The notes beneath the pieces are model-generated. The model was not told the DNA's origin, did no database searches, and was given only the letters and a program-made list of their open reading frames with translations. Of a stretch of DNA of 46,963 nucleotides, positions 452 through 37,573 are shown piece after piece. A program made the position numbers and the translations under genes. The first letter of the stretch is position 1. Every line of letters begins with the position of its first letter. This stretch comes from a virus: positions 1 through 46,963 of the IMG/VR virus record IMGVR_UViG_3300014913_000020; one strand, given 5' to 3'.

Positions 452-480
452 TTGACTTGCCTATTCCAGCGTGGTACAAT
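452..480 (+). promoter_or_regulatory. sigma70-type promoter for the 595-2814 operon
   Basis: TTGACT (452-457), 17 bp spacer, TACAAT (475-480). It lies just downstream of the terminator at 410 and starts a transcript at about 486 that begins with a structured leader. Confidence 0.8.
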
Positions 481-484
481 AGAG

Positions 485-594
485 AAGCTAAAGACACACT
501 AGAAATATAGCTTTCTCGGCTTTTTGTGTCATTGTGTCTTTAGCAGGTTCATCGACACGAAAGGCCGAGAGAGCTATTTTTTATGGAGGGAATT
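485..594 (+). promoter_or_regulatory. structured leader L1 with interleaved inverted repeats
   Basis: Arm A GCTAAAGACACA (487-498) pairs perfectly with A' (533-544). Arm B AGCTTTCTCGGC (509-520) pairs with B' GCCGAGAGAGCT (564-575), 11 of 12. The order is A-B-A'-B', so one arm of each helix lies within the span of the other. B:B' is followed by T6 (577-582), like an intrinsic terminator, and then at once by the GGAGG ribosome site (584-588) of the gene at 595. Leaders at 32999, 34164 and 35176 share the plan. Whether it is an attenuator or a pseudoknot is inference. Confidence 0.65.
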
Positions 595-1008
595 ATGGAA
601 ATAACAGAATCAGAATGGGGCATTCTTTTCGAGTCGCTGCGCTACACAAAAGAGGCGTTCCAAAAGTATGAGTATTACCCGTCTAGGGAGTTCAAGCAAG
701 GCAGAATTAAAGAGGTTGATTCGCCGGCAGAAAAGTTGAAGGCGATAAAAACGCCGCCTATTTTGACGGGAGAAGAAGAATCTGTAATTGATGAATGTTT
801 TGGCGGCGACTTTGGCGGAATTATACATGCCGAAACAAGAAACGGGCTTTTCATTTTTATGCGCACGGTTTTGGGAGAGGACTGTCTTGAAGTGCGAACA
901 GTGCAAGAATTGAAAGACGGAATAGCTGGCGCACAAAAAGAACTGGCAGAAAATCCAGCAAAAAGCGACGGCGAACTATATGATGTTTTGTCGGAATGGA
1001 TAGGCTGA
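595..1008 (+). CDS. hypothetical protein, 137 aa
   Basis: First gene after the 452 promoter and leader L1. The ATG at 595 is chosen over the in-frame ATG at 583 because GGAGG at 584-588 then lies at normal distance. The product is acidic, soluble and without signal peptide or membrane segment; the N-terminal part (ITESEWGILFESL) is helical and the C-terminus ends in a DVLSEWIG helix. No family recognised. Its stop is 1 nt before the next start, so it is translated together with the ParB-methyltransferase gene at 1010. A role linked to that enzyme is possible but unproven. Confidence 0.8.
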   Translation: MEITESEWGILFESLRYTKEAFQKYEYYPSREFKQGRIKEVDSPAEKLKAIKTPPILTGEEESVIDECFGGDFGGIIHAETRNGLFIFMRTVLGEDCLEVRTVQELKDGIAGAQKELAENPAKSDGELYDVLSEWIG

Positions 1009-2856: not shown

Positions 2857-2978
2857 GACAGGTTCTAATTGCTTTCCTGTCAATTTCTGTTTTTGGTTAT
2901 GTTGGACATTTGAATACTCCTTTTCAAAATGCGCAAAGCACGGCCCGCCTGAGTAGACACAGGCGGGTTTGTGTTTTA
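2857..2978 (+). ncRNA. candidate phage small RNA, ~120 nt
   Basis: The segment lies between a good promoter (2822-2850) and an intrinsic terminator (2944-2977), with no ORF longer than a few codons. It can form TGACAGG/CCTGTCA (about 2857-2883). TGGACAT (about 2904-2910) can pair with ATGTCCA just after the terminator hairpin. Function unknown; the call rests only on promoter, terminator and lack of coding. Confidence 0.45.
2944..2977 (+). terminator. intrinsic terminator
   Basis: CCCGCCTG (2944-2951), 8-nt loop, CAGGCGGG (2960-2967), then a T-rich tail TTTGTGTTTT. Confidence 0.75.
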
Positions 2979-2989
2979 TGTCCACTATC

Positions 2990-3018
2990 TTGATTTTCGA
3001 TTCCGTTTGTGATATACT
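2990..3018 (+). promoter_or_regulatory. sigma70-type promoter for the lysis-like operon
   Basis: TTGATT (2990-2995), 17 bp, TATACT (3013-3018). It lies directly after the terminator at 2944-2977 and about 90 nt before the first membrane-protein gene. Confidence 0.75.
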
Positions 3019-3026
3019 AGATTTAC

Positions 3027-3082
3027 GCCCCGCCTCACACTCTGCAAAATCAGGGCTGGCGACACAACTCGTGGGGTGGGGC
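3027..3082 (+). promoter_or_regulatory. leader hairpin before gene 3103
   Basis: GCCCCGCCTCAC (3027-3038) pairs with GTGGGGTGGGGC (3071-3082) over 12 bp with two G-U pairs. It sits in the 5' UTR, 20 nt before the start, just upstream of the GGAGG site. It lacks a T-run, so it is more likely an RNA-stability or translation element than a terminator. Confidence 0.5.
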
Positions 3083-3102
3083 TGAATAGAAATGGAGGAA
3101 AT

Positions 3103-3297
3103 ATGGACGCAAAAAAGTTTTGGGAGTCTAAAACATTCTGGTTTTTTCTTTTAACGCTGCTTGTATCTATAGCTGGCGTTTTTGGTTTTGGTGGATTTGA
3201 GCCGACCGCCGAACAATTAGAGATTACGGGGGCAGTCGTGGCGATTGTTGGTATCATTTTGAGATTTGTCACCAAAGAGCCTATAAAGTTGAACTAG
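3103..3297 (+). CDS. small membrane protein, holin-like
   Basis: 64 residues; start at ATG 3103 because GGAGG lies just before it (an in-frame GTG at 3076 lies within the leader hairpin). A charged N-terminus (MDAKKFWESKT) is followed by a hydrophobic helix FWFFLLTLLVSIAGVFGF, then a second helix ITGAVVAIVGIILRFV and a short basic tail. Two membrane passes, small size and charged ends are usual for class II phage holins, and an RlpA-like secreted protein is encoded nearby. Holins have little sequence signature, so the function is inferred. Confidence 0.75.
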   Translation: MDAKKFWESKTFWFFLLTLLVSIAGVFGFGGFEPTAEQLEITGAVVAIVGIILRFVTKEPIKLN

Positions 3298-3642: not shown

Positions 3643-3916
3643 AGTACCAATCACAATAGCCGGCGGTGTCGTTGCCGGAATCATAGGGCACCAATTCAGA
3701 GAGCCAATAATCAGGCCATTCGACACACCAACAGCCCGTATAGCCTGTTATACCGCCGGGCATTTGATTTGTTCTATCGTTGGCGCGTTCATATTTTTGG
3801 CGATGGGCAATACAAGAGAAGACGCAGCGAGTTTTTTTGTAGCATCATTGCTGGCGGGTGGCGGAGTGGGGGCGGGTGTAGCACTAGGTACGTATCTCGA
3901 AGCTGGCAAAAAATGA
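3620..3916 (+). CDS. small membrane protein, glycine-rich
   Basis: 98 residues. ATG 3620 lies within the previous gene. Two or three hydrophobic segments: ITIAGGVVAGIIG, ICSIVGAFIFLAMG and ASFFVASLLAGGGVGAGVALG. The Gly/Ala-rich last helix and position in a row of small membrane proteins suggest a holin or antiholin. Function inferred from context only. Ends with AAATGA, where the next ATG overlaps. Confidence 0.72.
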   Translation: MGGVKVIKVPITIAGGVVAGIIGHQFREPIIRPFDTPTARIACYTAGHLICSIVGAFIFLAMGNTREDAASFFVASLLAGGGVGAGVALGTYLEAGKK

Positions 3917-4648: not shown

Positions 4649-4728
4649 ACCGGGGGCTTTTAGCAATTTGTGTGATTATCGTGGTGCTGGGCATTGGTTA
4701 TCTGGCAAGTCAGCATCCGTCGTGGTGA
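4645..4728 (+). CDS. tiny single-pass membrane protein, 27 aa
   Basis: ATG 4645 overlaps the TGA of the RlpA-like gene and the frame closes at 4726-4728, 7 nt before the next start. The product is one hydrophobic helix (LLAICVIIVVLGIGYLA) with a short SQHPSWW tail. Its size, coupling and place at the end of the lysis block suggest a holin modulator or membrane micro-protein. No family recognised. Confidence 0.6.
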   Translation: MNRGLLAICVIIVVLGIGYLASQHPSW

Positions 4729-4735
4729 GGTTGGT

Positions 4736-5998
4736 ATGAGTGAAAAAATAGAACAAGCGAAATTATCAAGTTTGATACCAGACAGCCGCAACGCCAATGC
4801 TGGCACAGAGCGCGGAACGTATATGCTAGACTATTCCCTGCGCAACTTGGGAGCCGGGCGTTCAATTCTCATTGATAAAGAAGGCCGCATCATTGCAGGG
4901 AACAAAACCGCAGAGGCGGCGGGGGCTATCGGGCTTGACGATGTGATCATTGTCGAGACAGACGGCACAAAACTTGTAGCGGTGAAGCGAACCGATTTGG
5001 ACTTGACAACCGATGAAGAGGCACGGTTAATGGCGTATGCTGATAACCGGGTGAGTGAGGTTGGGTTCGAGCTTGACTTGGAAGAGTTGCAGATTGATAT
5101 TGGGGAGGGGCTGGACCTGTCGGGGCTGTTTACCGATATTGAAATAGACGAGATGTTCCCAAGCGATGAGGAGAAACCCGATCCAGGCGCACAGGTTGAT
5201 AAGGCTGAAGTGTTGTTGGAAAAGTGGGGGGTTGAAAGAGGCCAGATATGGACGGCTGGACGGCACAGAATTATGTGTGGGGATTCTACGAGCGCGGAAG
5301 ATGTGGGGCGGCTGATGGAGGGAGAGGTCGTCCGGCTTGCAGTGCTTGATCCACCTTACGGCGTGGATTATGCCGACAAGAATAAATTCCTTAATGTGGC
5401 TGGCAAGGGCAGCCACATCCAAACAGATATAATTGGCGACAAGCTAGAAAAAGGCGACAAAGCAAAAATACAAAAAATGTGGAAAGATTCATTTTTTCAG
5501 ATGTCGGAGAATATGTCGCCGGGTGCGGTTGTTTATTGTTTTATGCCGCAAGGCGGCGACCAGATGATGATGATGATGATGATGGACGGTGCGGGAATTG
5601 AGCCGCGCCACGAGTTGATATGGGTTAAAAACAACCACGTTTTAGGGCGTGTTGATTATGCCTACAAACACGAGCCGATATTGTATGCTTGGAAAAAAGG
5701 CGGCCATCATTTCTATGGAGATTTTCAGACATCGGTGCTAGAGTTTCCAAAGCCGCACAAAAGCGATTTGCACCCCACAATGAAACCTGTTGATCTTCTA
5801 AAAAGACTTGTGCAAAATTCTAGCAAGCGCGGCGAGAACGTGCTTGATTTGTTTCTTGGAAGCGGAAGCGTATTGATAGCCTGCGAGCAAACCAACCGCA
5901 CCGGTTACGGAATGGAAATCGCAGAGAAGTATGTTTCAGTTTGCCTTGAACGGCTTTCTGGAATGGGGTTAGAATGTACTCTTTTGGAGGTTAAATAA
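4736..5998 (+). CDS. ParB-domain / adenine-type DNA methyltransferase fusion
   Basis: 420 residues; ATG 4736 follows a weak ribosome site and is closer to the family start than the in-frame ATG at 4694. N-terminal ParB-like domain (KLSSLIPDSRNAN, GRIIAGNKT, then VKRTDLDLTTDEEARLMAYADN). The C-terminal methylase has motif IV DPPYGVDY at about 205-212 and SAM motif LDLFLGSGSV near the end, the beta-class order typical of N6-adenine phage enzymes. A run of seven Met codons (5564-5584) lies in the middle. It overlaps the convergent HNH gene by 8 nt. Confidence 0.92.
   Translation: MSEKIEQAKLSSLIPDSRNANAGTERGTYMLDYSLRNLGAGRSILIDKEGRIIAGNKTAEAAGAIGLDDVIIVETDGTKLVAVKRTDLDLTTDEEARLMAYADNRVSEVGFELDLEELQIDIGEGLDLSGLFTDIEIDEMFPSDEEKPDPGAQVDKAEVLLEKWGVERGQIWTAGRHRIMCGDSTSAEDVGRLMEGEVVRLAVLDPPYGVDYADKNKFLNVAGKGSHIQTDIIGDKLEKGDKAKIQKMWKDSFFQMSENMSPGAVVYCFMPQGGDQMMMMMMMDGAGIEPRHELIWVKNNHVLGRVDYAYKHEPILYAWKKGGHHFYGDFQTSVLEFPKPHKSDLHPTMKPVDLLKRLVQNSSKRGENVLDLFLGSGSVLIACEQTNRTGYGMEIAEKYVSVCLERLSGMGLECTLLEVK
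5564..5584 (+). repeat. ATG trinucleotide microsatellite, seven copies
   Basis: Seven perfect ATG units, in frame, encode seven consecutive Met residues (about 277-283) between the catalytic DPPY motif and the C-terminal SAM motif. Length change would alter the protein without breaking the frame. Confidence 0.85.
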
Positions 5999-6805: not shown

Positions 6806-7168
6806 ATGACTAAACCGCAGAAATTCACAGCAGAGCAAATTATAGAGGCTTGCAAAGGCACGGGCGGCATAAAGGCCGTTGTTGCCAAAAAATTGCATTG
6901 CAGCAGGGAAACCATTTGCAACTATGCCAAAAAATATATCACGGTTCAACGCGCCCTAGATCAAGCCGATCAAGAAGCAACCGACTTGGCCGAATCCAAA
7001 TTCTTGCAGATGATAAACGCGGAACACTGGCCCGCTATCAAATACCGACTGGCGACAAAAGGTAAAGATCGCGGCTATACTGAACGCCAAGAAATCACCG
7101 GCGCGGAAGGCAAAGACTTGATACCCAAAAACACATTAGTCATAATCGAGTACAACGATGCCGACTGA
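6806..7168 (+). CDS. terS: terminase small subunit
   Basis: 120 residues. N-terminal helix-turn-helix: FTAEQIIEACKGTGGIKAVVAKKLHCSR is read as an Ala-Val-Ala-type DNA-binding HTH, followed by TICNYAKKY. A central oligomerisation helix (ALDQADQEATDLAESKFLQMI) and an AIKYRLATKGKDRGYTERQEITG segment follow; the last is a signature common in phage small terminases. It recognises packaging sites and feeds DNA to the large subunit. It overlaps the large subunit by 11 nt. The ribosome site is weak; the iterons at 6752-6784 lie just upstream. Confidence 0.85.
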   Translation: MTKPQKFTAEQIIEACKGTGGIKAVVAKKLHCSRETICNYAKKYITVQRALDQADQEATDLAESKFLQMINAEHWPAIKYRLATKGKDRGYTERQEITGAEGKDLIPKNTLVIIEYNDAD

Positions 7169-8495
7169 GCACCGCTTCACGCTGCCAATCACCAAAGAGT
7201 CAACATTGAAAGCATTTGTAAAAGCAGCCTGGGGCGCAACTATTCCCGACGTACAAGTGTGCCCAAATCACACCACACCCTGGCGGGCTTTTGCCGACGC
7301 TTATTTTGCAAGAAATACCGTGTCGGTGTGGAAAGCGTCACGGGGCTTTGGGGGCAAGTCTTATCTTTTGGCACTCTTGGGATTGACTGAGGCGGTAACG
7401 CTCAGGGCCGATGTAAACATACTTGGTGGTTCTGGTGAGCAGTCTGATAACGTGCTAAAATACAACATCGAGCATTGGGCGCGAAAGTCCGCGCCCTCTC
7501 ATTTGTTGGCTAGTGAGCCATACAAACACGAGACGGTGCTGACAACCGGCAACACGATTCGCTCTTTGGCGGCATCTATGCGTAGTGTGCGGGGCCCACA
7601 CCCGCAAAAATTACGACTTGACGAGATTGACGAAATGGACATAACCATTTTTGACGCGGCGATGGGGCAGCCGATGAGCAAAACGCGAGACGGGGTATTG
7701 ATACCGCAGCAGACGGTAGCCAGTTCTACTCATCAATACGCCAACGGCACGATGACAGAGATTCTAAAACGTGCTAAGGAAAAGGGGTGGGATACAAAAA
7801 TATGGTGCTATAAGGAGACAAGCGCGCAGCCTGGCGGGTGGCTAACGCCGCAAGAAGTAGAGGCCAAACGCAAAGATGTAACCGCTGCAATGTGGGAGGC
7901 AGAATACGATCTGCAAGACCCATCACCAGAAAGCCGAGCCATTGCACCAGAAAAAGTAAAGCAAATGTTCAAGCGCGAACTTGGCGAGTATGCAGGCTAC
8001 AACGGAGAATTGATAATCGCAGAACCGCCACAAGAGAACGCACAATATGCGACTGGTGCAGATTGGGCCAAAAAACAGGACTGGACGGTGATTATCACCC
8101 TGCGCACCGATTGCGATCCCTATCGAGTAGTGGCGTTTGAACGATGCGGGCGGCTACCCTGGCCGGTGATGGTGGGCAAGTACACCAAGAGAATCGAGAC
8201 TTACAGCGGACAATCAGCCCACGATCAAACAGGGCTGGGTGACGTGATCGGTGATTATATGTGGGCTGACAGCGAGGGCGTGATTATGGCAGGACGAAAA
8301 CGTAGCGATATGCTCTCTAATTACATATCAGCTATAGAGCGCGGTGAAATCGTATCACCTCATATCGATTTTATGCACGGCGAACATTTGTACACATCGG
8401 TTGATGACGTTTACGGTAGCGGGCATTTGCCCGACAGCATAGCGGCTGGGGCTTTGGCATTGGTGGCTGTGGGGAGTGGAGTGGGAGTGTGGTAG
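7158..8495 (+). CDS. terL: terminase large subunit
   Basis: 445 residues. The ATPase domain has a Walker A-like KASRGFGGKSYLL at about 59-71 and Walker B LRLDEIDEMD at about 151-160, with a VASST coupling motif later. The C-terminal nuclease domain is of RNase H type, with acidic residues in GADWAKKQDWTVII, TGLGDVI and a final HLPDSIAAGALAL helix. This motor cleaves and pumps phage DNA into the prohead together with the portal. Size is slightly short but the domain set is complete. Followed 10 nt later by the portal gene. Confidence 0.94.
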   Translation: MPTEHRFTLPITKESTLKAFVKAAWGATIPDVQVCPNHTTPWRAFADAYFARNTVSVWKASRGFGGKSYLLALLGLTEAVTLRADVNILGGSGEQSDNVLKYNIEHWARKSAPSHLLASEPYKHETVLTTGNTIRSLAASMRSVRGPHPQKLRLDEIDEMDITIFDAAMGQPMSKTRDGVLIPQQTVASSTHQYANGTMTEILKRAKEKGWDTKIWCYKETSAQPGGWLTPQEVEAKRKDVTAAMWEAEYDLQDPSPESRAIAPEKVKQMFKRELGEYAGYNGELIIAEPPQENAQYATGADWAKKQDWTVIITLRTDCDPYRVVAFERCGRLPWPVMVGKYTKRIETYSGQSAHDQTGLGDVIGDYMWADSEGVIMAGRKRSDMLSNYISAIERGEIVSPHIDFMHGEHLYTSVDDVYGSGHLPDSIAAGALALVAVGSGVGVW

Positions 8496-29288: not shown

Positions 29289-29422
29289 AAATCTCAATTA
29301 TTTTCGCCAAAAAATAAGTCAAAATACTTTTGCACGTTGTGTATCATTAGGCTATGTGAAAGTGCCAATAATAGCACGGAAAAAAATTGCCTATTGACGT
29401 ATTTATGCTTTTATGATATACT
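29289..29422 (+). promoter_or_regulatory. early promoter block, copy 1
   Basis: TTGACG (29394-29399), 17 bp, TATACT (29417-29422). Upstream it carries AAATCTCAAT (29289), ATACTTTTGCAC (about 29324-29335) and GTATCAT (29341-29347), shared with the blocks at 30284 and 39699. Drives the gene at 29476. Confidence 0.8.
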
Positions 29423-32790: not shown

Positions 32791-32987
32791 CTGAGTGCCA
32801 AAGCACAAATCACATAAAATGCTACGATTACGGCGCGGGCGACCCCGTCATCCTGTGGCGGTGTGCCAACTGTAAAAAGTGGCTGTGTTACGCGGACGGC
32901 TGCGCAGACGAGAATTACGAGCTTTGCGATAGTTGCGTGGCTGAAAATAAATCTCGGAAAACGCTTGACATTCACCCCCAATCATGA
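32787..32987 (+). CDS. zinc-ribbon protein, 66 aa
   Basis: ATG 32787 overlaps the previous stop. WRCANCKKWLCYADGC ... YELCDSCVAENK contains seven Cys in CXXC-like pairs, enough for two zinc ions. Role unknown. The promoter for the next operon (32965-32993) overlaps its 3' end. Confidence 0.72.
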   Translation: MTECQSTNHIKCYDYGAGDPVILWRCANCKKWLCYADGCADENYELCDSCVAENKSRKTLDIHPQS

Positions 32988-32993
32988 TACAAT
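32965..32993 (+). promoter_or_regulatory. sigma70-type promoter for gene 33179
   Basis: TTGACA (32965-32970), 17 bp, TACAAT (32988-32993). Overlaps the 3' end of the previous CDS and starts leader L2. Confidence 0.8.
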
Positions 32994-32998
32994 TCAGG

Positions 32999-33178
32999 AG
33001 TAATACCCTGGCGAACACCAAAGCGCCAATGTGGGGCTTTAACAAAACGCATACCAACATACATTTTTTGAAACCCAGTTTTTCACATGTGGTTGTGTAG
33101 TTCCCTCCTGGTAAGAGGGCGGTATGCAGCTACTACGGCCACAGGTGAAAGAGTGGGTTTTTTTGTTGGAGTAAAGAT
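32999..33178 (+). promoter_or_regulatory. structured leader L2 with interleaved inverted repeats
   Basis: 5' hairpin TGGCG (33009)/CGCCA (33024). Arm A GCATACC (33049-33055) pairs with A' GGTATGC (33121-33127). Arm B (33071-33100, starting AAACCCAG) pairs imperfectly over ~25 bp with B' (33130-33160, ending GTGGGTTT), then T7 and the GTTGGAG start region. The order is again A-B-A'-B'. The B loop carries CCCTC/GAGGG around CTCCTGG, an anti-ribosome-site-like sequence. A is only 7 bp, so it is the least certain part. Confidence 0.6.
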
Positions 33179-33733
33179 ATGAAAATACTAGTGGCCTGTG
33201 AGGAGTCACAAACGGTTACTATACAGTTCAGGAATTTGGGACACATAGCCTACTCGTGTGATACCGAGCCGTGTTCTGGCGGGTATCCAGAATGGCATAT
33301 ACAAAAAAATGTGCTGGAAATCCTATCTGATAGTTGGGATATAGTTTTAGCATTCCCTCCCTGCACGCATCTTGCCGTGAGCGGCGCACGCTGGTTTCCA
33401 GAAAAACGCGCAGATGGAAGACAACAGTCAGCTATAGATTTTTTTATGCAGTTCACGAAATTGAAATGCAGTTGGTGTATAGAGAATCCCGTTGGGATAA
33501 TGTCCACAGTGTATCGGAAACCAGATCAAATAATACAGCCCTGGCAATTCGGGCACGGTGAGACAAAATCAACATGTCTATGGCTTCACAATCTGCCGTC
33601 TCTAATCCCAACAAAAATCGTATCAGGGCGAGAGCAAAGAATCTGGAAGATGTCGCCTGGGCCTGAACGTTCAAAAATGCGAAGTAAAACATTTGATGGC
33701 GTGGCTATGGCTATGGCTGCGCAATGGGGATAA
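33179..33733 (+). CDS. DNA methyltransferase-like protein (C5-MTase fold, short)
   Basis: 184 residues. MKILVACEESQTVTIQFRNLGHIAYSCD is a Rossmann-like start with the CEESQ motif found in a common phage family annotated as DNA cytosine methyltransferase-like. WDIVLAFPPCTHLAVSGARWF contains PPC, the catalytic Pro-Cys, and SWCIENPVG is the ENP/ENV motif. No clear target recognition domain, so activity or role is uncertain. It has its own promoter and leader L2. Confidence 0.78.
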   Translation: MKILVACEESQTVTIQFRNLGHIAYSCDTEPCSGGYPEWHIQKNVLEILSDSWDIVLAFPPCTHLAVSGARWFPEKRADGRQQSAIDFFMQFTKLKCSWCIENPVGIMSTVYRKPDQIIQPWQFGHGETKSTCLWLHNLPSLIPTKIVSGREQRIWKMSPGPERSKMRSKTFDGVAMAMAAQWG

Positions 33734-33776
33734 TCATCACCTGAAATGGCGCAAGTGGATTTTTTAGGAGAATGAT

Positions 33777-34166
33777 ATGAGCATCAAAAGAATATCCGCA
33801 GTATGGGACAACAGCAAACAAAAGCCCGGCAAAATTCCGGGCAAGTTTTTAATGGAGGATACAATGAACACCGCACGCGGACACCTAGACTTATCAGAGA
33901 TAAAATGGCTACGCACAACGCTCGCACCGATAAAGTACAAATGTCCGCATTGCGGGAAATCTCTTGAGTACAATTTCGAGGATTTCGAGATAGGCAATTC
34001 TCCGGATACCACAGTAATGAGGGCGGTTGACTGCCTGCACTGTGAAAAAGAAATTGTCATAAAATTGATGATTGATATTCCGGTTACGGTTACGTTGGTG
34101 GCGCAGAATACCAAGCCAAATTTGCCTATTGACACAAACGAGAAAAAAGACTATAATGTTAAGTGA
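33777..34166 (+). CDS. zinc-ribbon protein with alternative starts
   Basis: 129 residues from ATG 33777 (AGGAGAATGAT before it) or 100 from ATG 33864 (ATGGAGGATACA before it), both in frame. The shorter form starts MNTARGHLDLSEIKW and has YKCPHCGKSLEYNFEDFEI ... VDCLHCEKEI, two CXXC pairs for zinc. The 29-residue extension is encoded across a GCCCGG/CCGGGC hairpin, the kind normally found between genes. So the shorter start is likely, with the extension perhaps a leader ORF. Confidence 0.75.
   Translation: MSIKRISAVWDNSKQKPGKIPGKFLMEDTMNTARGHLDLSEIKWLRTTLAPIKYKCPHCGKSLEYNFEDFEIGNSPDTTVMRAVDCLHCEKEIVIKLMIDIPVTVTLVAQNTKPNLPIDTNEKKDYNVK
33824..33850 (+). other. GCCCGG/CCGGGC hairpin with T-run
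   Basis: GCCCGG (33824-33829), loop CAAAATT, CCGGGC (33837-33842), then AAG and TTTTT, immediately before GGAGG and ATG 33864. It lies inside the in-frame extension of the gene. Confidence 0.6.
34129..34157 (+). promoter_or_regulatory. sigma70-type promoter for dcm
   Basis: TTGACA (34129-34134), 17 bp, TATAAT (34152-34157): full consensus, inside the 3' end of the previous gene. Starts leader L3. Confidence 0.85.
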
Positions 34167-34318
34167 GCGAGCAAAAGAAGCTCAAGGGACTGGAAACCCT
34201 AAACAATGACACAACAACCGTTTTTGCGAGTTGTTCTCTGTTCTTAGCCTGTCATTGGGCGATTTCCAGAGAACGAGAACGACTCGCAGCAACGGTTTTT
34301 TGTTTTTATGGAGGATTT
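34164..34318 (+). promoter_or_regulatory. structured leader L3 with interleaved inverted repeats
   Basis: Arm A: CTGGAAA (34190-34196) and CAATGACA (34204-34211) pair with TGTCATTG (34250-34257) and TTTCCAG (34263-34269), a two-part helix. Arm B 34216-34238 (AACCGTTTTTGCGAG...) pairs with B' 34275-34297 (...GACTCGCAGCAACGGTT) over ~23 bp with few mismatches, followed by TTTTTT and GGAGG. The order is A-B-A'-B'. B:B' looks like a terminator in front of dcm. Confidence 0.7.
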
Positions 34319-35047
34319 ATGTTTACATTCGGCAGTTTATTCGCCGGGATAGGCGGTTTCGATCTTGGCCTAGAACGTGCCGGTATGACTTGCAAATGGC
34401 AAGTTGAAATCGATCCATTTTGTTTGAAAGTTTTATCGAAACACTGGCCTAGTGTGCTAAAGTTTGAGGATGTGCGGAATGTCGGAAGTGACAACCTGGA
34501 ATCAGTTGACCTTATTTGCGGGGGGTTTCCCTGTCAAGACATCAGCAACGCCGGGAAAAGGGAAGGCATCAAAGGCAAGAAATCGGGACTATGGGCAGAA
34601 TATCGGCGCATCATTTGCGAAATTCGACCCCGTTATGTTCTTGTGGAGAACGTCGCAGCACTGCTTACTAGGGGGCTTGAAACAGTTCTCGGAGACTTGG
34701 CCGCGAGCGGGTATGATGCGGAATGGCAGTGTTTACCGGCGGCCGCCTTTGGCGCACCTCACAGACGTGACAGGTTGTTTATTATTGCTCACTCCATTGA
34801 CAATAGACGCAACAATGAGCAAATCCTTGCGGGGAAATTACAAGCGCAAAAACAGAGCCAATCATTATGGCAGTCTTTCGGAACAGTTGATAACAAAATA
34901 TGGCTTGAGGATTACTGTGGGCTTTCAAGAAATGTTGATGGGATTCCCCACCGGGTGGACAGACTTAAATCACTCGGAAACGCCATAGTGCCACAAATAC
35001 CGGAATGGATAGGCAGGCAGATTATGAAAGTTGAGGCAGCGCAATGA
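34319..35047 (+). CDS. dcm: DNA cytosine-5 methyltransferase
   Basis: 242 residues. Classical motif order: FAGIGGFDLGL (I, ~9-19), IDPFCLKVL (II), VDLICGGFPCQDISNAG (IV, Pro-Cys ~71-72), VLVENVAAL (VI, ENV ~110), AAAFGAPHRRDRLFIIA (VIII, ~149) and SLGNAIVP (X). The target-recognition region is short, so specificity is unknown. Probably a solitary methylase that blocks host restriction. ATG 34319 follows GGAGGATTT and leader L3. An ATGA overlap links it to a 23-codon ORF. Confidence 0.94.
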   Translation: MFTFGSLFAGIGGFDLGLERAGMTCKWQVEIDPFCLKVLSKHWPSVLKFEDVRNVGSDNLESVDLICGGFPCQDISNAGKREGIKGKKSGLWAEYRRIICEIRPRYVLVENVAALLTRGLETVLGDLAASGYDAEWQCLPAAAFGAPHRRDRLFIIAHSIDNRRNNEQILAGKLQAQKQSQSLWQSFGTVDNKIWLEDYCGLSRNVDGIPHRVDRLKSLGNAIVPQIPEWIGRQIMKVEAAQ

Positions 35048-35115
35048 CAGAACCAAAAATGATTTTCAGACGGGCCAAAGACAAAGAAAACCCGTTTGTG
35101 ATGGTAGACTTTTAA
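35044..35115 (+). pseudogene. 23-aa remnant resembling the N-terminus of a replication-initiation protein
   Basis: ATG 35044 overlaps the dcm stop; TAA 35113-35115. MIFRRAKDKENPFVMVDF is the start seen in phage DnaD/winged-helix replication proteins (KDKENPFVMVD precedes the conserved LSWKAKG). The rest of the gene is missing and a promoter follows at 35141, so it may be the stub left when the primase module was brought in. Confidence 0.5.
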
Positions 35116-35140
35116 ACTTTCAAAGTGCCAAAATTTCCGG

Positions 35141-35169
35141 TTGACACGGCTTGAATTTTTTGGTATACT
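35141..35169 (+). promoter_or_regulatory. sigma70-type promoter for the replication operon
   Basis: TTGACA (35141-35146), 17 bp, TATACT (35164-35169): near consensus. Starts leader L4. Confidence 0.85.
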
Positions 35170-35175
35170 GAATAG

Positions 35176-35375
35176 CGTAATTGGTTAGCTGGATTTGGCA
35201 ATCTGGCAAATGATAACCGAACAGCAAAACATACAAAAGGCGATTACCAAGAGAATAGTTAAATCTTGAAACCCATAGCGATATGGGCGGCTCCAAGTCC
35301 TTTTGTATGTGGAGCTTGCCAGGCTCTTAAACGAGCCGCCTATATCGTTGCGGGTTTTTTTATTTGGAGGACAAC
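35176..35375 (+). promoter_or_regulatory. structured leader L4 with interleaved inverted repeats
   Basis: 5' hairpin TTGGTTA (35181-35187)/TAACCGA (35214-35220) with inner ATTTG/CAAAT. Arm A ACATACAAAAGG (35229-35240) pairs perfectly with A' (35299-35310). Arm B 35272-35293 (CCCATAGCGATATGGGCGG..) pairs with B' 35333-35354 over 22 bp, followed by T7 and GGAGG. CTGGCAA (35203-35209) also matches TTGCCAG (35316-35322). The clearest of the four leaders. Confidence 0.75.
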
Positions 35376-36359
35376 ATGGACGAAACTGTACCAACAAAAC
35401 AATTTCTTGATGTTTTGCATCGTGGGGGGAACTGGGCTTTTTTATGGAAACCGAACACGCCAAAGGGGCATCTTACCTACTGGTACAGAGTGGCGAAAGG
35501 CTTGCCACCATTCCACAATAAAAGCGATGTGTACTTTGGGGTTAATCCTTGCGCAGAGATACCAACCCACAACAGCAAGGGTGAACCAACACCTGCTAAA
35601 TATGTGCGATCACAAATTCCGATTGTGCAAGGGCAAAATTGCCTGTACAGCGAGTTCGATGCCCGTGATTATGGGGACAAGGCAGAAATAAGAGCGCACC
35701 TCGACACACTTCCCTTTTCTCCAAGCGTTATCATAGACAGCGGTGGAGGATACCACGCATACTGGATTTTATCAGAATTTTGCGAGTTTGCCGCAAACGC
35801 AGACAGGGAAAAGGCAAAGTATCGGCAGTGGGCTTGGGTAGAATTTACTGGTGGTGATAGAGGCTCAAAATGTTTGACTAGAGTCTTGAGGATACCCGCC
35901 ACACTCAACACAAAGTACACTCCCCCCAGACATGTTTCATTTGCTAAAATTGATCTCTCAATAACCTATCAGTGGCAACAAATCGACAGCGTGATCGCCG
36001 ACATTGTAACCAGGCTGCACACAGCCGTTGAACGAAACCATAGACGCGGCAACGGGCCAACGTTAGACGGGAAGCGGTTGACGAAATACGTCAAGGCCAC
36101 CATAGTCGGGATACTGGATAAAGTACAGAGTGCTGAAAACGGAAGCAGAAACAGCCTCTTGCATTGGGCGGCGTGTCGTTTAGGAGAACTGGCTGCAACG
36201 AATTGGGCTGGGCTGGATATGGCGCAGGCATTTGATTTATTGTTTCAAGTATCCCCCCTCAAAGACGGCGAAAGCAAAGCCACAATACAAAGCGGACTGA
36301 ACAAAGGCGCACAGAATCCAGCCGAACAGCCGCGCTATAATATGGAGCAACCGCTATGA
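35376..36359 (+). CDS. primase-polymerase (AEP / RepB-like)
   Basis: 327 residues; ATG 35376 after GGAGGACAAC. AEP features in order: DVYFGVNPC (motif region before catalytic acids), YSEFDARDYG with an acidic DxxD pair, PSVIIDSGGGYHAYW (GGGYH nucleotide-binding loop) and SKCLTRVLRIPATLNTK (the RIPGT-N-K motif of RepB-type primases). The C-terminus is helical, with GESKATIQSGLNKG. It should make primers and perhaps extend them at the phage origin. ATGA overlap with the helicase gene. Confidence 0.85.
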   Translation: MDETVPTKQFLDVLHRGGNWAFLWKPNTPKGHLTYWYRVAKGLPPFHNKSDVYFGVNPCAEIPTHNSKGEPTPAKYVRSQIPIVQGQNCLYSEFDARDYGDKAEIRAHLDTLPFSPSVIIDSGGGYHAYWILSEFCEFAANADREKAKYRQWAWVEFTGGDRGSKCLTRVLRIPATLNTKYTPPRHVSFAKIDLSITYQWQQIDSVIADIVTRLHTAVERNHRRGNGPTLDGKRLTKYVKATIVGILDKVQSAENGSRNSLLHWAACRLGELAATNWAGLDMAQAFDLLFQVSPLKDGESKATIQSGLNKGAQNPAEQPRYNMEQPL

Positions 36360-37573
36360 CCGAAAAGGTAGACGCTACTCAGATCGTTGAGGATATTTTA
36401 ACTGGAAAAAACGTGGGGACATTCTCACATAGCTACATCACTTTTCCTCTTTTCTGCAAAACGTTAGAAATGATGAAATATAGCATCAGAACCAATGCTT
36501 GTAATGATGACATAGAGGTAAACGGCAGGGTGTTGACCGACTTACTAGAGGGCACAATCAAGAGCCGACTTGTAGATTTTGCCAGAGATAACGGGCTAAA
36601 ACTCCCCAAAGATGACATCCGAGATCACATGCTGCGGCTGGCTGCGAAGCAATCATATCATCCAATCAGAGAGTATTTAGAGTCTTTGGAATGGGACGGG
36701 CAAGACCATATAATTAACTTGGCTGGATATTTCACAGACAAAGAGCAACTTTTTGCCCGTTGGCTGCAAGCCTGGTTGGTTGGTGCGGTAGCCAGAATAT
36801 ACGAACAATGGCAAAACCCAATGCTTGTACTTGACGGCCCTCAGGACTTGGGAAAATCGCATTTTGCGGAATGGCTATGCTCGCCTCTCCCCTTGATGTT
36901 TAAGGAATCCTCAATATTGCCAGAATACAAAGCGCACAGGATTGCACGGGTTGAAAATTGGGTATGGGAGGTTCAAGAACTTGGCGCAACTACTCGTAAG
37001 GCCGATCAGGAGAGCCTCAAAGCATTTCTATCGGATAAGATGACAAAAGACTTAAAGCCCTATGGCGTACACCCTATTCACAAAACAAATGCCGCCTCGT
37101 ACATTGGTACAATAAACAATGAGGCCGGATTTTTAACCGACAGAACCGGCAACCGTCGGTACTTGGTATGCGCCCTAACAGGCATTGATTGGGGTTACGC
37201 ACAAAAAATTGACATCGATCAAGTGTGGGGGCAGGCATACCATTGGTACACAACCGGCAACGATTGGAAATTGACAGATGATGAAAAAGCCTACCGCGAT
37301 ATGACAAATGAGGAATATCTGGTTGATGATCCAATTGAAATTATACTGTCTGAGGAAATGAAATACACAGGAGACGACAAAGATCGCGTTTCCTCAAATG
37401 ATATTCAGACAATGCTAGTGAGTCGAGCAATCAGGCCAACCAGATCGGCAGCGCGATCCGTCAAGGGTATACTTGTGTCGTGGGGCTGTGAACACAAAAA
37501 TATGCGCATAAACGGAAAGCAGAGCAAGGGCTACAACAAAGTCAAAATGTCGGGATTGGGGATGTTACCGTAA
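36356..37573 (+). CDS. VirE-type (superfamily 3-like) replicative helicase
   Basis: 405 residues. P-loop VLDGPQDLGKSHFAEWL at about 157-173, Walker B/acidic region ENWVWEVQELGATTRKAD and a later TNNEAGFLTDRTGNRRYLV (arginine finger region, NRR), as in virulence-associated E/D5-like phage ATPases. The N-terminal ~150 residues are helical and hold a PIREYLESLEWDGQDHI segment. With the preceding primase it forms the replication module. Its last codons contain the first origin iteron (GTTACC, 37564). Confidence 0.88.
   Translation: MTEKVDATQIVEDILTGKNVGTFSHSYITFPLFCKTLEMMKYSIRTNACNDDIEVNGRVLTDLLEGTIKSRLVDFARDNGLKLPKDDIRDHMLRLAAKQSYHPIREYLESLEWDGQDHIINLAGYFTDKEQLFARWLQAWLVGAVARIYEQWQNPMLVLDGPQDLGKSHFAEWLCSPLPLMFKESSILPEYKAHRIARVENWVWEVQELGATTRKADQESLKAFLSDKMTKDLKPYGVHPIHKTNAASYIGTINNEAGFLTDRTGNRRYLVCALTGIDWGYAQKIDIDQVWGQAYHWYTTGNDWKLTDDEKAYRDMTNEEYLVDDPIEIILSEEMKYTGDDKDRVSSNDIQTMLVSRAIRPTRSAARSVKGILVSWGCEHKNMRINGKQSKGYNKVKMSGLGMLP

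Follow-up and report, generated by a model that had tools for sequence, protein, structure and literature searches.

We identified four leaders in a viral DNA (IMG/VR virus record IMGVR_UViG_3300014913_000020; G+C content 48.7%), analyzed over its entire 46,963 nt and referred to here as the window, that appear to represent a phage-enriched class of gene switch in which the 5′ end of the RNA pairs with the loop of a terminator. Members of this class would be repeated within a genome ahead of genes for methyltransferases, primases, and homing-type nucleases, and would conserve the plan of the fold and not the sequence of its arms; we put the probability of this reading at about 55%.

Both strands of the window were searched for stems, with mismatches and bulges penalized, using a stricter detector in place of a first version whose loose bulge penalties were too permissive. 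Exactly four hairpins followed by a T-run scored above 50, the next best scoring about 30, and all four lie where a prior sequence-only reading had placed leaders with a common plan (485–594, 32999–33178, 34164–34318, and 35176–35375), at exactly four promoter-leader-gene junctions of the window. The stems, termed B:B′, contain 24–30 pairs, have fold z-scores of −4.9 to −6.9, and enclose loops of 23, 25, 23, and 39 nt in leaders 1–4, respectively; the one that had been given as about 23 bp near 34216/34275 is a 28-pair stem. Each B′ is followed by a T5–7 run, a ribosome site, and the ATG of the gene. B:B′ with its U-run is, by its anatomy, the intrinsic terminator that had been predicted: a G+C-containing stem and then a run of U. 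Ahead of each leader, a consensus scan located a near-consensus sigma-70 promoter with 17-bp spacing, again as claimed (Table 1). Two other promoters of the window, at 29394 and 30379, share a near-identical −10 and start region (ATACTGTTTGCAAGGTA) and, in contrast to the four long leaders, drive short ones. We also noted a terminator-like CCCGCCTG..CAGGCGGG repeat at 2966–3110 and, before the gene at ~3100, a promoter-like site and a GCCCCGCCTCAC/GTGGGGTGGGGC hairpin that abuts the ribosome site and has no T-run.

Table 1 Coordinates of the promoters, helix arms, and first genes of the four leaders in the window.
Feature	Position	Strand	Remarks
Promoter, leader 1	452..480	+	TTGACT-17-TACAAT; consensus scan
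Arm A, leader 1	487..498	+	starts at predicted +1; 12-bp perfect complement of 533-544
Arm B, leader 1	507..530	+	terminator left arm; 24-pair stem
Arm A′, leader 1	533..544	+	within terminator loop
Arm B′, leader 1	554..577	+	then T-run, GGAGG; z −6.9
First gene, leader 1	595..1008	+	gene call; no family assignment
Promoter, leader 2	32965..32993	+	consensus scan
Arm A, leader 2 (weak)	33049..33055	+	7 bp; pairs with 33121-33127
Arm B, leader 2	33071..33102	+	30-pair stem; z −4.9
Arm A′, leader 2 (weak)	33121..33127	+	pairs with 33049-33055
Arm B′, leader 2	33128..33160	+	then T7, GGAG
DNA methyltransferase, leader 2	33179..33733	+	phrog_757
Promoter, leader 3	34129..34157	+	12/12 consensus
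Arm A, leader 3	34190..34211	+	two parts: 34190-34196, 34204-34211
Arm B, leader 3	34216..34245	+	28-pair stem; z −5.9
Arm A′, leader 3	34250..34269	+	34250-34257 and 34263-34269; fills terminator loop
Arm B′, leader 3	34269..34297	+	then T-run, GGAGG
C5-cytosine DNA methyltransferase, leader 3	34319..35047	+	PF00145
Promoter, leader 4	35141..35169	+	consensus scan
Outer arm A2, leader 4	35203..35209	+	pairs with 35316-35322; read in sequence, inside duplex-fold match
Arm A, leader 4	35229..35240	+	12-bp perfect complement of 35299-35310
Arm B, leader 4	35269..35293	+	24-pair stem; z −5.4
Arms A′ and A2′, leader 4	35299..35322	+	A′ 35299-35310; A2′ 35316-35322
Arm B′, leader 4	35333..35357	+	then T-run, GGAGG
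Primase-like gene, leader 4	35376..36359	+	then VapE-type helicase 36356-37573

The terminator loop of the window leaders is complementary to sequence upstream of B, giving a second helix, A:A′, that crosses the first. The two 12-bp perfect A:A′ helices that had been described, at 487/533 and 35229/35299, are exact and non-random by both ungapped-helix shuffling and duplex energy (p = 0.001 and 0.0015 in leader 1; p = 0.0006 and 0.017 in leader 4), and leader 4 contains the A2 pairing as a nested extra beyond the earlier claim. The inner A:A′ part of leader 3 (34204–34211/34250–34257) is marginal, with p values of 0.04 by shuffling, 0.10 in a further test, and 0.065 by duplex energy, and a second part, 34190–34196/34263–34269, is nested with it. 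No excess over chance was found for the A:A′ of leader 2 (shuffle p = 0.11; duplex p = 0.74). B:B′ is secure in all four window leaders and A:A′ in two, such that the promoters, the terminators, and two crossing helices of the sequence-only reading stood, its interleaving beyond shuffled sequence is borderline in leader 3, and its A:A′ of leader 2 is unsupported. The main A and A′ arms lie wholly outside B and B′ in all four leaders, the lone overlap being between the outer A′ part of leader 3 and the edge of B′. As had been claimed, the arms differ from leader to leader, and no sequence motif is common to the four.

The first gene behind leader 1 likely starts at 595; an ATG at 583 overlaps its ribosome site. 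The next gene, 1010–2404, encodes an N6/N4 DNA methyltransferase with a ParB-like part. The assertion that all four leaders precede DNA-modification or replication operons fits the genes at 33179, 34319, and 35376 directly, and that at 595 through this following methyltransferase. The phage carries two separate ParB-like/N6-N4 methyltransferase fusions (1010–2404 and 4694–5998) in addition to the methyltransferase genes at 33179 and 34319.

Roughly 30 leaders built in this way were found in other uncultured viral contigs, several of which contain more than one copy. Viral contigs and GTDB genomes were scanned for the pattern of a promoter, 90–150 nt, a T-run, and GGAGG, which yielded comparable sets of leaders from the two sources, and a promoter-anchored search was added because a T5 requirement missed members with T4 runs. 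When the sequence upstream of each terminator was shuffled and the terminator kept, A:A′ was significant at p < 0.01 in 21 of 100 viral and 0 of 64 bacterial-genome promoter-to-ribosome-site leaders with a terminator, a many-member comparison built on pattern-selected contigs. Among loci unselected for promoter or ribosome site, A:A′ reached p < 0.015 at four of seven terminators with both a promoter and a ribosome site, and at none of 101 with neither. In a swap test, upstream segments scored a mean of 27.5 against the loop of their own terminator and 14.2 against those of other members, with 21 of 30 own-loop scores above the 99th percentile of the foreign scores. A phage with a protein 64% identical to that encoded at 7158–8495 carries this plan twice, once ahead of a Dam-type methyltransferase and once ahead of a gene whose translation, judged by eye, looks like that of a primase, with zinc-ribbon and TOPRIM-like sequence; a Pfam search returned no confirmation of the primase reading.

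Most of the genes behind the leaders encode DNA methyltransferases, primase or replication proteins, or HNH endonucleases. The last of these follow the leaders of L230, L295, L444 (at 3880), L458, L495, and L512, and a weak NUMOD3 match follows that of L452; behind others lie an N6/N4 methyltransferase (L473), a gene with a CHC2-type primase zinc finger (L453), a helix-turn-helix gene that may be of replication type (L444 at 4923), and genes without a family assignment. The association with methyltransferases and primases that had been pointed out is thus found within a broader range, as HNH/homing-endonuclease genes lie behind many of the leaders. Neither the 327-aa primase nor the 141-aa gene matched anything in homologue searches, and the helicase had no match in ten related records; methyltransferase searches gave many homologous genes, but without such a leader. 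No named phage was found to resemble those multi-copy contigs that were tried or the HNH protein of L458, and the feature lists of two named phages with related methyltransferases contain no comparable leader feature.

Seven of the leaders form a homologous subfamily, with the consensus A..CGG-AUUUUUUAUG-B-GUAGG..GAAAA..UAACCG..A′-CCGAA-B′-U-run; an overly strict regular expression for this GUAGG subfamily gave no matches. Its A:A′ is 98.2% paired, with 13 of 18 pairs altered on both sides; none of 500 shuffles was as good, and slid registers paired near 50%. For B:B′, 61 of 61 cells are paired as compared to 36% with swapped partners. The alignment was segmented by hand along the helices, so that these pairing counts lean towards structure, and its register was set independently by the conserved loop motifs. 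Two paralogous leaders of L444 are 91% identical, and where they diverge in A:A′, in its inner extension, and in B:B′, the changes compensate each other; the pairing read from their alignment matches a one-base insertion on the opposite arm. Compensatory changes in homologous leaders are hence present for both helices, and the order A-B-A′-B′ with both helices conserved, as in an H-type pseudoknot, is seen by covariation, which bears on conservation of the helices and not on their simultaneous formation. The family, defined by plan and not by sequence, extends to other uncultured phages. In L444, the leaders of the genes at 3880 and 6979 contain a third complementary pair, GTTTGYC/GGCAAAC, with one half immediately 5′ of B and the other separating A′ from B′; it crosses both other helices and is possibly part of the antiterminator.

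Across members, arm A is 66% purine and begins 4 to 8 nt past the −10 box, i.e., at about +1, in 23 of 33. In L473, L457, and L201, arm A was seen by eye inside the loop of an upstream hairpin, so that it would meet the terminator loop as a kissing loop rather than in a plain pseudoknot. When stability is computed without pseudoknots, B:B′ folds are the more stable in 21 of 34 members and A:A′ folds in nine; while B′ is only partly transcribed, A:A′ is usually the leading fold. By an optimistic geometric estimate, loop lengths permit both helices together in 28 of 33 members, so strict exclusion of A:A′ and B:B′ is not required; the loops of some members are too short for both.

The promoter, terminator, ribosome site, and crossing helices are conserved as a plan with covarying arms, and from this anatomy we tentatively propose, at slightly under even odds, that each leader acts in cis to attenuate transcription of a single phage gene, with a 5′ segment controlling the terminator via its loop. 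In the RNA started at the strong promoter, A would come first, often from +1, and pair with A′ in the terminator loop; A:A′ would form before B:B′ because B′ is made last. By keeping B in a closed loop, A:A′ could delay or block full pairing of B:B′ at the U-tract, so that RNA polymerase reads through into the gene. If A were occupied or elongation slowed, B:B′ would win and transcription would end before the gene, the whole amounting to a race between A:A′ and B:B′ during transcription. Since the copies do not share their arm sequences, a general signal (elongation rate, a phage-modified polymerase, or occupation of the 5′ end by a ribosome or an RNA-binding protein) is more probable than one small ligand.

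The same two helices might instead coexist in a cooperative pseudoknotted terminator, where A:A′ joins B and B′ across a long loop and yields better termination or a stabler end product, leaving the gene off by default until an antitermination factor on RNA polymerase opens it. This arrangement, which we consider rather unlikely, would fit the 28 members whose loops are, by that optimistic estimate, long enough for both helices, and threading is easiest with A at the free 5′ end. Control of the lambda-Q type has the same promoter-leader-terminator-gene layout, and in the GUAGG subfamily B:B′ has only 6–13 bp and closes a long loop, which would make it a weak terminator alone. However, the 24–30 pairs of B:B′ in the window need no help, and the members with short loops could not hold both helices. 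Chance, i.e., ordinary terminators with complementary sequence nearby, would fit the non-significant A:A′ of leader 2 and the marginal one of leader 3, but the swap tests, the covariation, and the contrast between viral and bacterial genomes refute it for the family; it is very improbable overall and could account for leader 2 only.

Stable, functional RNAs of 100–180 nt, terminated, closed at both ends, and followed by a gene expressed via leak-through, would explain why the GUAGG leader is uniform at ~100–110 nt, why the 5′ end is buried in A:A′, and why short loop motifs are conserved. We find such small RNA genes improbable, as the A:A′ signal in unselected loci is tied to a ribosome site abutting the T-run, and the arm sequences differ even inside one phage. 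More doubtful again is a classical riboswitch or leader-peptide attenuator with interleaving as a by-product: although one subfamily has conserved unpaired motifs (GUAGG..GAAAA..UAACCG and poly-U), there is no ligand-binding core or motif common to the window leaders and no Rfam match. In L452, L495, and L512, a frame opened by an AUG downstream of the conserved poly-U run reaches or passes the gene start, as a leader peptide might, but L544 and L454 either lack such a frame or have an early stop in it. Attenuation by the 5′ segment, if confirmed, would constitute a modular switch in uncultured phages that is recognizable by topology and missed by sequence-based RNA family searches, would show gene-by-gene gating of DNA-modifying and DNA-cutting enzymes by phages, and would offer a clean test system for crossing-helix competition during transcription.

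An Rfam covariance-model search gave no matches at the gathering score and only low, sub-threshold scores at a relaxed threshold, and a search of open-access papers found no description of such leaders, in agreement with the statement that no named RNA is known to have the A-B-A′-B′ plan; of the earlier interpretation, a family with a common plan is retained, and its gene range was too narrow. Like terminator/antiterminator attenuators (T-box, trp-type), the leaders have a promoter-proximal terminator abutting the gene and a competing upstream pairing. The classical antiterminator takes bases of a terminator arm, which was not found in the window leaders, whose A and A′ cross B and B′ without using their bases, save at the edge in leader 3. 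The lambda pR′-tR′ or Q-dependent late leader and other phage antitermination leaders likewise consist of a strong promoter, a short leader, and a terminator before phage genes. Leaders of the lambda Q type serve the late operon singly and are not known to have crossing helices, whereas the present design recurs in several copies, ahead of early-type DNA enzymes. H-type pseudoknot riboswitches and kissing-loop RNAs share the two crossing helices and, in some members, an A within a hairpin loop; here, in contrast, the arms vary freely, no aptamer is common, and the second helix is the terminator itself. HEARO and omega RNAs (Rfam) are structured RNAs that also precede HNH endonuclease genes, as several members do, but the present leaders do not match them in Rfam, pair their arms with themselves, and stand before methyltransferases and primases as well. 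In their working the leaders look attenuator-like, without the shared arm of classical attenuators, and seem to be a kind of phage gene switch that has not been described before.
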